This document shows, piece after piece, positions 2,035 to 7,157 of a stretch of DNA of 64,000 bases; within the stretch, counting starts at the first letter, position 1, and each line of letters starts with the position of its first letter. The stretch is taken from NCBI GenBank assembly GCA_029261295.1, contig JAJDBP010000032.1, forward strand, positions 124,001 through 188,000. The letters are read 5' to 3'. The notes beneath the pieces were generated by a model. That model was given only the letters and a program-made list of their open reading frames with translations. It made no database searches and had not been told where the DNA came from. Origin of the DNA: Nitrospirales bacterium. GTDB taxonomy: Bacteria; Nitrospirota; Nitrospiria; Nitrospirales; UBA8639. Made by a program: the position numbers and the translations under genes.

Positions 2035-3603
2035 TTAGAAGGATTTGTAAATTTCGTCGCGAATCTTTTTGACGTGAATATGATAACGGTTAATTTTTTT
2101 GATAAGCCCTTGCCGGCTAATACCTAGCTGGGCAGCGGTCCTGACTTGGTTGAATTGGCAAGCTACCAAGGTATCTTTGATTATTTGCTGCTCAAGCTCA
2201 CCCAAAATTTCTGGCAGGCTTTTCCCTTTCAATCCATCGGGCTCATTCAAATCTCGTGAGGAATGATTTTTAATCGTAAGATCAAGAACCTCCTCATTGA
2301 TCGTAGATCCACGCACCATAACAGCCAAACGTTTCATTTCATTACTGAGCTGGCGCATATTACCGGGCCAATCATATTCAACTAACCTGCGCATGGCGGC
2401 CGAAGAGATTTTTTTGGGCGGCTTGTCCATCCCAGTACAATGTTGATGTAAGAAAAAATTAGCGAGCAAAGGAATATCGGCCGGAATCTGCCGTAACGCC
2501 GGAGTCTGAATATGCACGACCTTCAATCGATAATACAGGTCTTCACGGAAAGCTCCAACTTTGATAGCCTCTTCAAGATTGGTATTCGTAGCAGCTACGA
2601 CCCTGATACTAATGGGAATGAGCTTTCGTTCCCCCACTGGCTCAACCACTCGTTCTTCTAAAACCCTCAAGACCTTGGCCTGGGCCTTAAGTCCCAAGTC
2701 CCCTATTTCATCAAGAAAGAGTGTTCCTTTGTGGGCTTGTTCAAATTTTCCTATCCGGGCATCAACTCCAGTTGCTGTGCCCCTCCCAATCCCAAACAGC
2801 TCACTTTCAACTAAATTTTCAGGCAGAGCGGCACAGTTGATCGCCACAAATGGAAACCTTGCCCGTGGGCTTGAATAGTGAATGGCCTTGGCCACTAATT
2901 CTTTACCTGTTCCATTTTCGCCTGTGATTAGCACATCGACAGAACTATCGCGTATTTGATCGATCACTCGAACTAATTGCTGCATGGGAAGACTGTTGCC
3001 CATGAGGTTTTGTGTGGAAAACCGCCCTTCTATTTCTTTCCATAATTGAGCATTTTCCTCTTCCAAAACTTGACGTGCTTGATTCAAATTTTCCATTTGA
3101 TGAAATTTCTGAAGAGGTATAGAAATTTCATTGACGAAATTCTTGGCCACATGCTCATCCTTCGCTGAAAAATCCCCTTTTTTTTTATTGACCGCCTCAA
3201 AAACGCCAAAAGTTTCTCCGGTTGATAATCGCAAGGGAATAGCCAACAGGGTACGCGTGCGCCGCTTGGTGCTCAAATCAATTCCCGAGAAAAATCGGTC
3301 ATCGGATTGGACATCCTTAACATTGAGCGTTTCTCCTGTGGAGACACAATGCCCGGCAAGACCTAAGCGGGCATCCAACCGTAATATTTGCCCTTCTTCC
3401 TGCAGAGGAAACCACAATTCTTGTCGAGCCTTATCTAAGAGAAAGACGCTGGCCACTTCTGCGTCTAATCGCCTACGAGCTTCGTCACGAATACATTGGA
3501 AAAATGAGCTGCAGTTCGTTTCTTGCTTAAGACAAATCTGAAAGCGACTGCCATCACGCTTTGGGCTTGAGATATTGTCCTCTTTTTTTACTCGTTCAGG
3601 CAT
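2035..3603 (-). CDS. GAF-AAA+-Fis transcriptional regulator, atypical bacterial enhancer-binding protein
   Basis: Domains in order: a GAF sensor at about residues 30-175 (AGHCVSTGETLNVKD, LLAIPL), a sigma-54-interaction AAA+ domain at about 200-435 with Walker A GENGTGKE and Walker B GTLFLDEIGD, and a C-terminal Fis-type HTH (RTAAQLGISRQGLIKKI). At the position of the GAFTGA loop that touches sigma-54, the protein reads GTATGV (ELFGIGRGTATGVDARIG). The R-finger region AFREDLYYRL is normal. GAF ligands cannot be predicted. The gene stands alone, with 150 bp to the ferredoxin end and about 220 bp upstream of its start. It probably acts as an ATP-driven activator or as a member that has lost sigma-54 contact. 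Confidence 0.88.
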   Translation of the reverse strand: MPERVKKEDNISSPKRDGSRFQICLKQETNCSSFFQCIRDEARRRLDAEVASVFLLDKARQELWFPLQEEGQILRLDARLGLAGHCVSTGETLNVKDVQSDDRFFSGIDLSTKRRTRTLLAIPLRLSTGETFGVFEAVNKKKGDFSAKDEHVAKNFVNEISIPLQKFHQMENLNQARQVLEEENAQLWKEIEGRFSTQNLMGNSLPMQQLVRVIDQIRDSSVDVLITGENGTGKELVAKAIHYSSPRARFPFVAINCAALPENLVESELFGIGRGTATGVDARIGKFEQAHKGTLFLDEIGDLGLKAQAKVLRVLEERVVEPVGERKLIPISIRVVAATNTNLEEAIKVGAFREDLYYRLKVVHIQTPALRQIPADIPLLANFFLHQHCTGMDKPPKKISSAAMRRLVEYDWPGNMRQLSNEMKRLAVMVRGSTINEEVLDLTIKNHSSRDLNEPDGLKGKSLPEILGELEQQIIKDTLVACQFNQVRTAAQLGISRQGLIKKINRYHIHVKKIRDEIYKSF

Positions 3604-3827: not shown

Positions 3828-4616
3828 TTAAATATCTATGACTTGGCCTTCTTGAAGAATCGTGACATCTGGAAAATTGAGTTGGGAAATTTCTTGAATA
3901 ATTGGGTCACGAACAGCAGGTTTCATGTGATAGACGAAAAGAGAAAGCTCAGGATTTCCGATCTTCAGGTATTCTTCGGCGAGATGCTTGGGTGTGAGAT
4001 GCTTACTTTGAACAGCAAGATCCATCATTGAGTCCGGAAAGGAAACTTCGATTAAGACCCCTTTGAGATTAGGTGTGCAGGCGGCCATTTCCCAAATGGA
4101 TTCTGTTTGATAGGTATCCACTATAAATCCAGGCTGCTGTATCATCTCGAATGACATAGCCCACCATTTCGACAGTATGATTCACGAGCACTGGAGTCAC
4201 CCTAACACCGCCCGCAACAGGACCTCTTTTTGAGGCTTGAGGATCTGAGATCGCAGATTGGAATTACGTGGGCCTTGGAGATTGAAAAAATTCGGGAAGA
4301 TCAAATCATTAAAGATATGTTTTTAAAGCCCTTCCATGACTGATGATAAGCGAGCCACCACAACTCGATGGCCCACCAACCCAGAAAGGTTGTCCACCAA
4401 TAATGGAATACTTTTAATATAATCCAGATGGAGGTGCGAAGGAATTATCTGTTTTACACATGGTTATTCCTCGAGTGTGAGACTGGAAACAAAGGCACCC
4501 GCATCAATCATCAGTTCGTCATGGACTAAGAACCCCACGCTCCGACAGTTAGAAGAACCAATTGGCCCTTTTACCAGCAAATCAGAACCATGTGCTCCAA
4601 GGACGCGAATCTTCAT
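3828..4616 (-). pseudogene. Decayed metallo-beta-lactamase-fold phosphodiesterase-like gene
   Basis: The minus strand from ATG 4616 reads MKIRVLGAHGSDLLVKGP, a typical MBL-fold N-terminus. It meets a stop (TAA after LTLEE), continues as IIPSHLHLDYIKSIPLLV (the metal motif HxHxDH with the last H now Y), meets another stop (TAA), and then changes frame. The C-terminal third is open at 3828-4157 and carries VLIEVSFPDSMMDLAVQSKH and LFVYHMKP, typical of class II cyclic-nucleotide phosphodiesterase/MBL hydrolases. A 2-base loss around SGDTY explains the last frame change. The total of about 263 codons matches the family length, so this is one intact gene broken by at least two stops and two frameshifts. 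The open C-terminal piece alone could be annotated as a small gene by mistake. Confidence 0.85.
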
Positions 4617-4987: not shown

Positions 4988-5986
4988 CTATTTCTTCACT
5001 TCCCAAATTGAGTCTACAAAGTAGTGCTGTGAGTCAAAGAGATGCTTCACTATTCGGTACCCACTAGCCTCAGCCAGAGATTCTATTTCTAATTGCGTAT
5101 ACTTATAGGAATGCTCGGTTTGCATAGCTTCCCACTGTTCAAAAGAAAACTCCTTCCTCAACGCATCAATGGTGACCACCTGTTTTTGTGTACTGAAAAT
5201 GTAGCTCTCGACTGCATGTGTACTCGGATTATAATGACCTTGTTGAACAAAATGTTCTTTTGAAAAGTTCGCCCCTAGCCTTACATTCAGGATACTCAAC
5301 AGATGGAGATTGAATCGTTCAAACACCATTTTTGAATCATTGTAGGCTGCATACAACGTTTTGGGGTGTTTCATCAGATCGAAGCCGATCATGACATAGT
5401 CCCCTTCATTCAACAATTCCCGCAATTCCCGAACAAATTTCGCGGCTAGAGGTAACTCCATGTTGCCAATGGTCGAACCTAGAAAAAAAACAATATTTCG
5501 TTTGTCAGATTGGCTGCTTAAGGTACGGAGTCCCTCAAAATAATCCGCAGCCAATCCAGCAACCGACATGGTGCCCTTGGCATACCGGGACTCAAGAAAA
5601 TCCACAAGATCCTTGATAGCTCCCTCAGAAATATCAATAGGCATATACTCAAATGTCAGTTGGCTCTGAATAAAGTGCTGAAGAAGAATGTGTGTCTTCA
5701 TCCCATCTCCCGCACCTAATTCAATTAGACGGAAATTATCGTTGGCCAGCAGATCGGTGATTGTCTGCTTGTAGTTGTGAAATATTTCAATCTCACATTG
5801 AGCTGGATGATATCCTGGCAGTTGTGTAATTTCGGTGAAAATTTCGCTACCCCGATTATCGTATATCAACCACGATGGCAGACGCTTTGGGTTTTTTGAT
5901 AGTCCTTCGAGTACTGCCTTGGCGAATTGGTCATCGAAAGTGGAAACGGCAGTTCCCAATCTCAAATTATTATAGTGAAATGACAT
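4988..5986 (-). CDS. egtD: L-histidine N-alpha-methyltransferase (EgtD family)
   Basis: SAM-dependent enzyme that trimethylates histidine to hercynine, the first committed step of ergothioneine synthesis. Visible signatures are the SAM site LIELGAGDGMKT (about residue 90), FLGSTIGN with the Asn that binds the substrate, and EHSYKYT near residue 290, containing the Glu and Ser that hold the histidine in characterised EgtD. The length of 332 residues is normal. The usual YYPTR is altered to GYHPAQCE, so substrate preference could differ. No egtB or egtA is in the window. It is divergent from the diiron-oxidase-like gene at 6105. Confidence 0.85.
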   Translation of the reverse strand: MSFHYNNLRLGTAVSTFDDQFAKAVLEGLSKNPKRLPSWLIYDNRGSEIFTEITQLPGYHPAQCEIEIFHNYKQTITDLLANDNFRLIELGAGDGMKTHILLQHFIQSQLTFEYMPIDISEGAIKDLVDFLESRYAKGTMSVAGLAADYFEGLRTLSSQSDKRNIVFFLGSTIGNMELPLAAKFVRELRELLNEGDYVMIGFDLMKHPKTLYAAYNDSKMVFERFNLHLLSILNVRLGANFSKEHFVQQGHYNPSTHAVESYIFSTQKQVVTIDALRKEFSFEQWEAMQTEHSYKYTQLEIESLAEASGYRIVKHLFDSQHYFVDSIWEVKK

Positions 5987-6104
5987 GAGGCTCCTTGTTT
6001 CATATTTAGCATGACGCGTTGTTTGATCACCCTTCGAGAAGCTTGCTAGAATATAAGCGTTTACGTTTTTTTTTTACAGCCACTTTCTAGTATAACCGCC
6101 CCTG

Positions 6105-7157
6105 ATGAACGTTTCTTCCTCTCCAACCCTAAATCCAACCACCTATTTTGAAGCCGAAGCTGTATTTGGCGACCTTCTGCAACATGCCGACCTTGATCAG
6201 TACACATCCACAGCACCCGAAAGCCTGGAGCTGTTTGAACATGTCTTAGGATTAGCCCTTGAAGCGTACCAGGACCCATCCCCCTGTCCGCATGCACATC
6301 TTTTCCTTCAACGAATTTTGTATAGAATCAACCGACTTAAGCTGTTCTGGTATGACAATCTTGAGAATTATGTTAACGAAAATTCGACTTTTCTTTTCCT
6401 AGTTCAGAAGAAAATCGATACCGCTTGCCAACGCTGGGAAACTCAGAAGTTTGACATCCCTTTCTTGAAGAGTCTGGATGTTGAAACAGGACTTCGGGAA
6501 CGTACAACTGAGGACCTTGAACCTGAACCATCGCAAACTGGCCTGTTTTTCCGCAATGAAATGTCGCAGGCAGGATACCGTCGATTATTAGCTATCGCCT
6601 CTCTTGATGGCTTGGTGGAAGCCAGCCAATTGTCCAGAGTGATTGGCGGAGTTGGGAACGAGGTTCAGGCGATGCTTACCAAAATTCTCTTCGAGGAGTA
6701 CGGAGGAGGGAAGTTGGCAAGAAAACATTCATCGTATTTTTCGAAGATGCTGAAAGAATTTGATATGAACACCACACCAGAAGCATACTTTGAACTGGTT
6801 CCCTGGGAAGTACTGGCTAACATCAATCACAGCTTCACCATTTGTGAGCGCAAAAGAAATTTTTTACGGTATATTGGCAGTCTCCTCTACTTTGAAATAT
6901 CCGTTCCTTCTGCATTCAGAAATTACCAAACCGCAGGTGAGCGACTGGGCTTGAGCGAACAAGCCATCGGTTACTGGGAGGTACACATCAAAGAAGATCT
7001 TCGGCACGGACAATGGATGCTGAATGAGGTTGCTTTTCCACTCATCAGTAGCTATAAGGACTCCGCATGGGAACTCCTCTTAGGATACGACCAACAACGA
7101 TACCTCAGTAATCGCGCCAGCCAAGCCATTGCTCTATCTGTCCAACAAGCTGATTAA
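6105..7157 (+). CDS. Heme-oxygenase-like diiron oxidase (iron-containing redox enzyme family)
   Basis: All-helical protein of 350 residues. The C-terminal two thirds carry the ligand pattern of heme-oxygenase-like diiron oxidases: EEYGGGKLARKHSSYF near residues 205-220 (Glu and His) and HIKEDLRHGQW near residue 295 (His, Asp, His). Members of this superfamily cleave or oxidise amino-acid-like and fatty substrates in natural-product pathways; heme degradation itself is not implied. The first ~100 residues are not recognised. It shares a ~120-bp divergent promoter region with egtD, which suggests but does not prove a common pathway. Confidence 0.7.
   Translation: MNVSSSPTLNPTTYFEAEAVFGDLLQHADLDQYTSTAPESLELFEHVLGLALEAYQDPSPCPHAHLFLQRILYRINRLKLFWYDNLENYVNENSTFLFLVQKKIDTACQRWETQKFDIPFLKSLDVETGLRERTTEDLEPEPSQTGLFFRNEMSQAGYRRLLAIASLDGLVEASQLSRVIGGVGNEVQAMLTKILFEEYGGGKLARKHSSYFSKMLKEFDMNTTPEAYFELVPWEVLANINHSFTICERKRNFLRYIGSLLYFEISVPSAFRNYQTAGERLGLSEQAIGYWEVHIKEDLRHGQWMLNEVAFPLISSYKDSAWELLLGYDQQRYLSNRASQAIALSVQQAD

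Follow-up and report, generated by a model that had tools for sequence, protein, structure and literature searches.

In the genome of a Nitrospirales bacterium, a gene for a divergent paralogue of EgtD, the methyltransferase that makes hercynine, lies back to back with a gene for a heme-oxygenase-like diiron oxidase (HDO). What do the two enzymes make? The question was addressed in a stretch of 64,000 nucleotides, here called the window, in the rest of the same genome (the own genome) and in related genomes. The data suggest that the pair probably makes an undescribed modified amino acid. In the open-licence PMC literature, we found no description of the pair, no paper that joins heme oxygenase-like proteins with EgtD or PF10017 with PF14518, and no paper on ergothioneine in Nitrospina. 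According to PMC13108848, the function has been validated for only about a dozen HDOs. Groups of the Nitrospirota and Nitrospinota type are known for marine nitrite oxidation (PMC10579370, PMC8026999), and the EgtD2 partner found in these two groups would narrow the HDO substrate to alpha-amino acids.

The gene pair and its conservation

The methyltransferase gene (EgtD2, 332 aa) occupies positions 4988..5986 of the window on the minus strand, and the oxidase gene (HDO, 350 aa) positions 6105..7157 on the plus strand. A preliminary description of the locus had read them as an EgtD and a heme-oxygenase-like oxidase, and both the open reading frames and the family assignments were confirmed. EgtD2 belongs to PF10017 (E=5e-90, 302.1 bits against a cut-off of 23) and spans positions 1-303 of the 304 of this Pfam domain, and HDO belongs to PF14518 (Haem_oxygenas_2; E=3.1e-27, 96 bits against a cut-off of 28.9). 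NCBIfam has no family for HDO. EgtD2 is predicted to be a SAM-dependent alpha-N-methyltransferase of an amino acid, and HDO a predicted N-oxygenase.

In a survey of 146 related genomes, 18 have an intact EgtD2 orthologue, with 65-75% identity (100% in the own genome). In all 18, HDO adjoins EgtD2 divergently, with the HDO of G007 cut by a contig end. By the coordinates of the matches, to which start codons were added, the genes lie about 110-130 bp apart in 17 genomes and about 380 bp apart in G030. Since the same divergent pair recurs in 18 of 18 genomes, the adjacency is far beyond chance. The preliminary description had suggested a neighbourhood survey, in which absence of the oxidase from the surroundings of egtD in relatives, together with egtB and egtE elsewhere, would have spoken against its reading of a new histidine betaine-derived metabolite. 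The opposite was found, with HDO beside EgtD2 in these 18 genomes and in 41 of 80 loci of a wider scan.

Presence and absence of the two genes tell a similar story. In G003, fragments of the two genes lie on separate contigs; in G011, which gave no EgtD2 match, a fragment of HDO sits at the end of a contig; and G001 and G012 retain only EgtD2 remnants with an internal stop and lack any match to HDO. Among 395 genomes sampled from the phylum, close EgtD2 occurs in 10, all of them with HDO; 2 further genomes have EgtDs of 41-43% identity and lack HDO, and 5 further genomes (G003 and four of another family) have HDO and lack a close EgtD2. The genes are thus inherited together, with a dependence that is one-way: intact EgtD2 was always beside HDO, but HDO occurs without EgtD2.

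The genes diverge from a common intergenic region of 118 bp (5987..6104, assigned to neither strand). When 17 of the 18 intergenic regions are aligned, a promoter-like element towards HDO is among the best conserved positions. It reads TTGATC-18-TAGAAT, and a TG precedes the second hexamer (6023..6052, plus strand; scan match 9/12). Overall, the promoter scan did no better than chance (6 found versus 5.0), and it was rejected as evidence by itself.

A larger gene cluster was considered and rejected for the Nitrospirales. Across 16 neighbourhoods, which range from 8.8 to 20 kb in length, five is the highest number in which any other real gene recurs, and the bigger clusters consist of frames that overlap the pair. 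The most recurrent neighbours are a sigma-54 regulator and a second family (5 of 16 each). In the window, a protein with GAF, sigma-54 activator and Fis-type regulator matches in Pfam is encoded at 2035-3603 on the minus strand, and it is a relative of this regulator that lies near the pair in the five stretches. Also close to EgtD2 is an open reading frame of 109 aa (3828-4157, minus strand) with no Pfam match. In the Nitrospinota, where the loci come from close relatives, certain genes near the pair are found repeatedly, in up to 14 loci.

Ergothioneine-type genes in the host genome and its relatives

The novelty of the product had originally been argued from the lack of egtB. Near the pair, egtB is indeed lacking, since the only other FGE-sulfatase match on the 195-kb contig lies at a distance of about 64 kb and has no egtD neighbour. 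For the genome as a whole the premise fails. Contig C2 carries a second, canonical egtD (EgtD1), in a cluster (L015 7399-13716) together with a sulfoxide synthase that has DinB_2 and FGE domains, a betaine-type ABC transporter (an OpuAC/permease fusion and an ATPase) and an aminotransferase-V gene where egtE would be. This cluster rules out the step from "no egtB" to "new product" for the own genome. The recommended genome check for egtB and egtE thus came out positive for genes of this kind beside egtD1, but both stay below the curated cut-offs. The synthase scores 246 of 400 bits for OvoA, 188 of 420 for SenA and 186 of 360 for EgtB, and the aminotransferase 65 against an EgtE cut-off of 400, so the genes are named only EgtB/OvoA/SenA-like and egtE-like. 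EgtD2 is a paralogue with its own gene context, apart from the EgtD1 cluster. The broader idea that the pair matters and probably does not serve the usual ergothioneine route is upheld by this separation and by the conservation of the pair in Nitrospirota and Nitrospinota. In all, the own genome has 13 matches to the FGE-sulfatase domain.

The situation is different in a set of 18 Nitrospinota-type genomes with the pair (17 titled Nitrospinota/Nitrospina or like, one Nitrospirae), where EgtD2 is the sole EgtD-like match at E<=0.001. None of these genomes has a match to the C2 sulfoxide synthase at E<=1e-30, a test that missed the cyanobacterium G174, which the EgtB family model found. With this model, no full-length EgtB is present among the matches listed, which reach down to about E=1e-21: those from the Nitrospinota-type genomes begin at position 168 or later and miss the DinB half, and both halves are seen in the controls, three cyanobacteria and the own genome. 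The model's own cut-off is passed by no genome, the own genome included. A full-length metallopterin-dependent ergothioneine synthase (MES) is likewise absent from the 18 genomes; in 17 the matches are confined to the cysteine-desulfurase half, and G146 has no match at E<=1e-40. Among Nitrospirales of another family, G050, G053, G056 and G059 have no EgtB match at 1e-30, and G050 and G056 possess a second, canonical EgtD.

The active site and ancestry of EgtD2

The model of EgtD2 (pLDDT 91.9) has EgtD (4PIM) as its top PDB match, with a TM score of 0.91 at 28% identity. The likeness to EgtD (TIGR03438) includes the fold, the SAM site, the backbone residues and Glu282. With residues numbered by alignment to Mycobacterium smegmatis EgtD, and 35 EgtD2 compared with 34 other PF10017 proteins (the truncated EgtD2 of L171 was left out), Tyr56, Asn166, Tyr206, Glu282 and Ser284 are retained in 35 of 35 EgtD2. 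According to PMC8593015, Asn166, Tyr56, Tyr206 and Ser284 of EgtD grip the alpha-amine and the carboxylate. The GYHPAQCE motif, which had been noticed early as altered, is genuinely so. It aligns to residues 55-62 of the M. smegmatis enzyme (EYYPTRTE), retains Tyr56 and Pro58, and differs at positions 57, 59, 60 and 61. Judged by the alignment, it is in part a signature of the EgtD2 clade, where A62 is found in 33, C64 in 32, H60 in 25 and G58 in 19 of the 35 sequences.

The differences from EgtD concern the side-chain pocket. Thr213 of EgtD helps to position a water at the imidazole nitrogen (PMC8593015). The equivalent residue is Phe in all 35 EgtD2, but Thr or Ser in all 34 other PF10017 proteins. 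Tyr39 is replaced by Phe in 30 of 35 EgtD2, but is Tyr in the window's protein, and Ser takes the place of Met252 in all but one of the 35. Residues 252 and 282 had been altered to change specificity, as is seen from PDB entry 4PIP, by its title an M252V/E282A variant with tryptophan. EgtD2 also remains below the curated cut-off of TIGR03438, the histidine N-alpha-methyltransferase equivalog (290.9 bits), in all three cases tested (272.7 in the window, 272.2 in L155 and 253 in L160), whereas EgtD1 (327.4) and two MES-linked EgtDs (314.7 and 330.4) pass. EgtD2 is a member of PF10017 that falls short of a TIGR03438 EgtD.

The MES-linked EgtDs are the two nearest EgtDs outside the EgtD2 clade. 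They adjoin genes for proteins of 1125-1130 residues that combine the domains Molybdopterin, Molydop_binding and Aminotran_5, as MES does according to PMC9516567, which also describes the MES-linked EgtD as a histidine-methylating lineage. In the tree, with a long-branch warning, EgtD2 and the MES-linked EgtDs are sister clades (support 100/99). Both have Ser at 252 and Cys at 61, but the two MES-linked proteins retain Thr213, pass TIGR03438 and have MES, not HDO, as partner. Because of the sister relationship, it is most likely that EgtD2 descends from a histidine-methylating enzyme and that its side-chain pocket changed later. The replacement of Met252 by Ser was at one point taken as a sign against histidine, and was dropped because Ser is also present in the two MES-linked EgtDs. 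With Ser252 common to the sister clade, only Phe222 and Phe/Tyr42 argue for a changed substrate, and the retention of Tyr42 in the window's EgtD2 weakens the case.

The active site and fold of HDO

HDO matches SznF at E=1.2e-10. E215, H225, E281, H311, D315 and H318, the core metal ligands of SznF, align with E198, H208, E264, H294, D298 and H301 of HDO. An extra ligand, SznF E189, which sits on Fe1 according to PMC10654658, aligns with HDO E172, and RohS likewise has a Glu at this position. In an alignment of 16 Nitrospirales rows and 63 HDO loci (17 of the 80 loci, L074, L075, L077-L087, L098, L129, L136 and L142, were left out), all seven ligand residues (3His/4carboxylate) are invariant in 79 of 79 sequences. 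PMC13108848 puts the share of HDOs with such a 3H/4C set at about a quarter.

The AlphaFold model of HDO has a pLDDT of 91.8, and ranks 1-18 of the Foldseek search with this model are all HrmI, SznF or RohS. Structural Z scores are 32.3 for HrmI, 28.5 for SznF and 27.1 for RohS, followed by 24.1 for the Pseudomonas aeruginosa protein 3BJD, 23.0 for FlcD, 20.3 for CADD, 19.2 for BesC and 17.2 for UndA; Z rises with target length, and the values of CADD, BesC and UndA are lowered by their shorter chains. Ligands and modelled fold together point to N-oxygenation.

Each of the three nearest systems resembles HDO in part. HrmI, the L-lysine N-oxygenase of hormaomycin biosynthesis, has the closest fold (over 322 residues), but only 16% identity, and is a 3His/3carboxylate HDO according to PMC13108848, to which the HDO family of the window adds the extra Glu. 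RohS, the 2-aminoimidazole N-oxygenase of azomycin biosynthesis, is the best profile match (E=5e-18) and shares the extra Glu, but is shorter (278 residues solved) and about 18% identical. We know of no methyltransferase partner of RohS. The HDO domain of SznF, which N-hydroxylates N-methyl-arginine in streptozotocin biosynthesis, aligns with HDO at all seven ligands. In the SznF system, the N-methyl-arginine is supplied by the system's own methyltransferase. That the substrate of SznF is N-methylated (PMC13108848, PMC10849742) is a further point of likeness. Unlike SznF, HDO has no C-terminal cupin domain: Pfam detects only Haem_oxygenas_2, and the protein stops at residue 350. HDO is a member of the 3H/4C HDOs and not an SznF. 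By analogy, EgtD2 and HDO would work like a tailoring pair of methyltransferase and N-oxygenase.

Distribution of the HDO family

When named genomes were scanned with the HDO alignment, 93 relatives were obtained, and the best 80 were retained. Their sources are Nitrospirota, Nitrospinota, Cyanobacteriota and a few further groups. In 41 of these 80 loci a divergent EgtD2 gene lies next to HDO, all with titles of the Nitrospirota or Nitrospinota type except for one Ignavibacteria-labelled contig, and 39 have no adjacent EgtD2. The exceptional contig (L074) is 3.1 kb long, carries a Nitrospirales-like pair with 78% HDO identity, and is perhaps misbinned. An EgtD-like search that covered 45 of 46 loci (L112 was left out) found no match at all in 6 of 45 HDO genomes.

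In the HDO tree, the EgtD2-linked label changes only 4 times, compared to a mean of 26.3 for shuffled labels, and none of 500 shuffles is as low. The Nitrospirales sequences form one clade in both the EgtD and the HDO trees (100/99 each), surrounded by Nitrospinota sequences; both trees gave long-branch warnings and are rooted for drawing only. Such a pattern would fit a joint transfer of both genes. EgtD2-linked and unlinked HDOs differ in only three columns of the alignment (at least 85% versus at least 70% with a different residue), so the reaction of HDO is probably the same in both.

Where EgtD2 is missing, other methyltransferases may take its place. The next gene is methyltransferase-like in 15 of the 39 unlinked loci, by clustering and a few Pfam and NCBIfam checks, and none was identified as such in the other 24. 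In 12 of the 39 it belongs to one cyanobacterial family, called methyltransferase-like from sub-cut-off Pfam and NCBIfam matches in those tested (Pfam MTS in two); most of the 12 are close kin. In L101, L110 and L117, a Methyltransf_25-type gene adjoins HDO.

A possible pathway and its alternatives

The explanation that we tentatively favour, with a probability of roughly 0.4, is a two-step modification of one amino-acid substrate, in which HDO N-oxygenates and EgtD2 methylates the product. HDO would bind two irons and use O2 to oxygenate a substrate nitrogen, as SznF, RohS and HrmI do. With S-adenosylmethionine as donor, EgtD2 would then methylate the oxygenated amino acid at its alpha-amino group. 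The backbone site of EgtD2 should still fit an alpha-amino acid, and its side-chain pocket appears to be reshaped for something other than plain histidine. HDO may act first on a common amino acid, the product of which is then modified by lineage-specific methyltransferases, including EgtD2. This order is the simplest account of the occurrence of HDO without EgtD2, the near-invariant columns and the other methyltransferase neighbours; the reverse order is possible. The substrate is perhaps histidine, perhaps another nitrogen-bearing amino acid, and a histidine-derived product is possible. We infer N-oxygenation, the order of steps and the action of both enzymes on one molecule from the combined evidence. 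In evolutionary terms, and as guardedly, an ergothioneine-type EgtD may have lost its sulfur-inserting partner and joined a diiron N-oxygenase, to form a two-gene pathway of Nitrospirota and Nitrospinota towards an undescribed N-oxygenated, alpha-N-methylated and possibly histidine-derived amino acid. If true, this would extend the chemistry of HDOs by a new reaction, and the EgtD-type metabolism of marine nitrite-oxidising groups by a new branch.

Alternatively, EgtD2 may trimethylate histidine to hercynine, and HDO may oxidise the hercynine to a new histidine-betaine metabolite. The ancestry of EgtD2, its intact Glu282 and backbone site, the Ser252 that it shares with the MES-linked EgtDs and the lack of full-length EgtB (among the matches listed) or MES in the 18 Nitrospinota-type genomes are in line with this order of events, and the histidine-methylating sister clade weakens the case for a changed substrate. 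We nevertheless regard it as somewhat unlikely, in view of the Phe at position 213 in every EgtD2 and the TIGR03438 scores, and because HDO, with nearly unchanged conserved columns, is present in the 6 genomes without an EgtD-like match, so that EgtD-made hercynine is not its obligatory substrate. The pair could also modify an amino acid while HDO carries out desaturation, C-C cleavage or rearrangement. The same ligands can serve different reactions in different HDOs (PMC13108848), the fold of FlcD is close, and the extra ligand is missing from HrmI, the nearest protein in fold, all of which weakens the assignment as N-oxygenase. The extra Glu common to SznF and RohS and the top ranks of N-oxygenases favour the assignment, making other chemistry rather unlikely.

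Two further alternatives dispense with N-oxygenation altogether. HDO might mainly limit reactive oxygen, and EgtD2 provide an antioxidant betaine, with common stress regulation and no common substrate. The shared divergent intergenic region would suit this, and such a role has been proposed for DtpC of Acinetobacter baumannii, an HDO-domain protein that limits peroxide when cells are dried (PMC13232832). However, the co-loss in G001 and G012 and the one-to-one tie of HDO to EgtD2, and not to the canonical EgtD1, better fit a single pathway, and independent roles seem improbable. Finally, HDO could sulfurise EgtD2-made hercynine, either by itself or with the help of an unlinked sulfur donor, in a fourth route to ergothioneine, the synthesis of which arose at least three times according to PMC9516567. 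Genomes with the pair that have no full-length EgtB (among the matches listed) or MES match, namely the 18 of the Nitrospinota type, would leave room for such a route. It is very improbable all the same, considering that neither the Pfam search of the window nor the comparison of the 16 Nitrospirales neighbourhoods shows a domain or partner for sulfur transfer at the locus, that the own genome already has a sulfoxide-synthase cluster, and that HDO is present without EgtD.

Other neighbours of unlinked HDO genes

Several unlinked loci have HDO next to genes of other families. In the cyanobacterial loci L121, L125, L138, L141 and L151, a MOSC-domain gene of a single family is arranged divergently to HDO (by Pfam in L121, L125 and L151), and the gene of L125 matches PDB yuaD at E=5e-60. 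Some MOSC proteins reduce N-hydroxylated compounds, so such a neighbour would fit an N-oxygenated product. A GCS2/YbdK-type carboxylate-amine ligase gene adjoins HDO in four other cyanobacterial loci (L112, L113, L137 and L149). In L132, L134, L135 and L140, from Pyrinomonadaceae, Binatia and deltaproteobacterial MAGs, HDO precedes genes for a glycosyltransferase-like protein and a PLP decarboxylase (by Pfam in L132 and L140).
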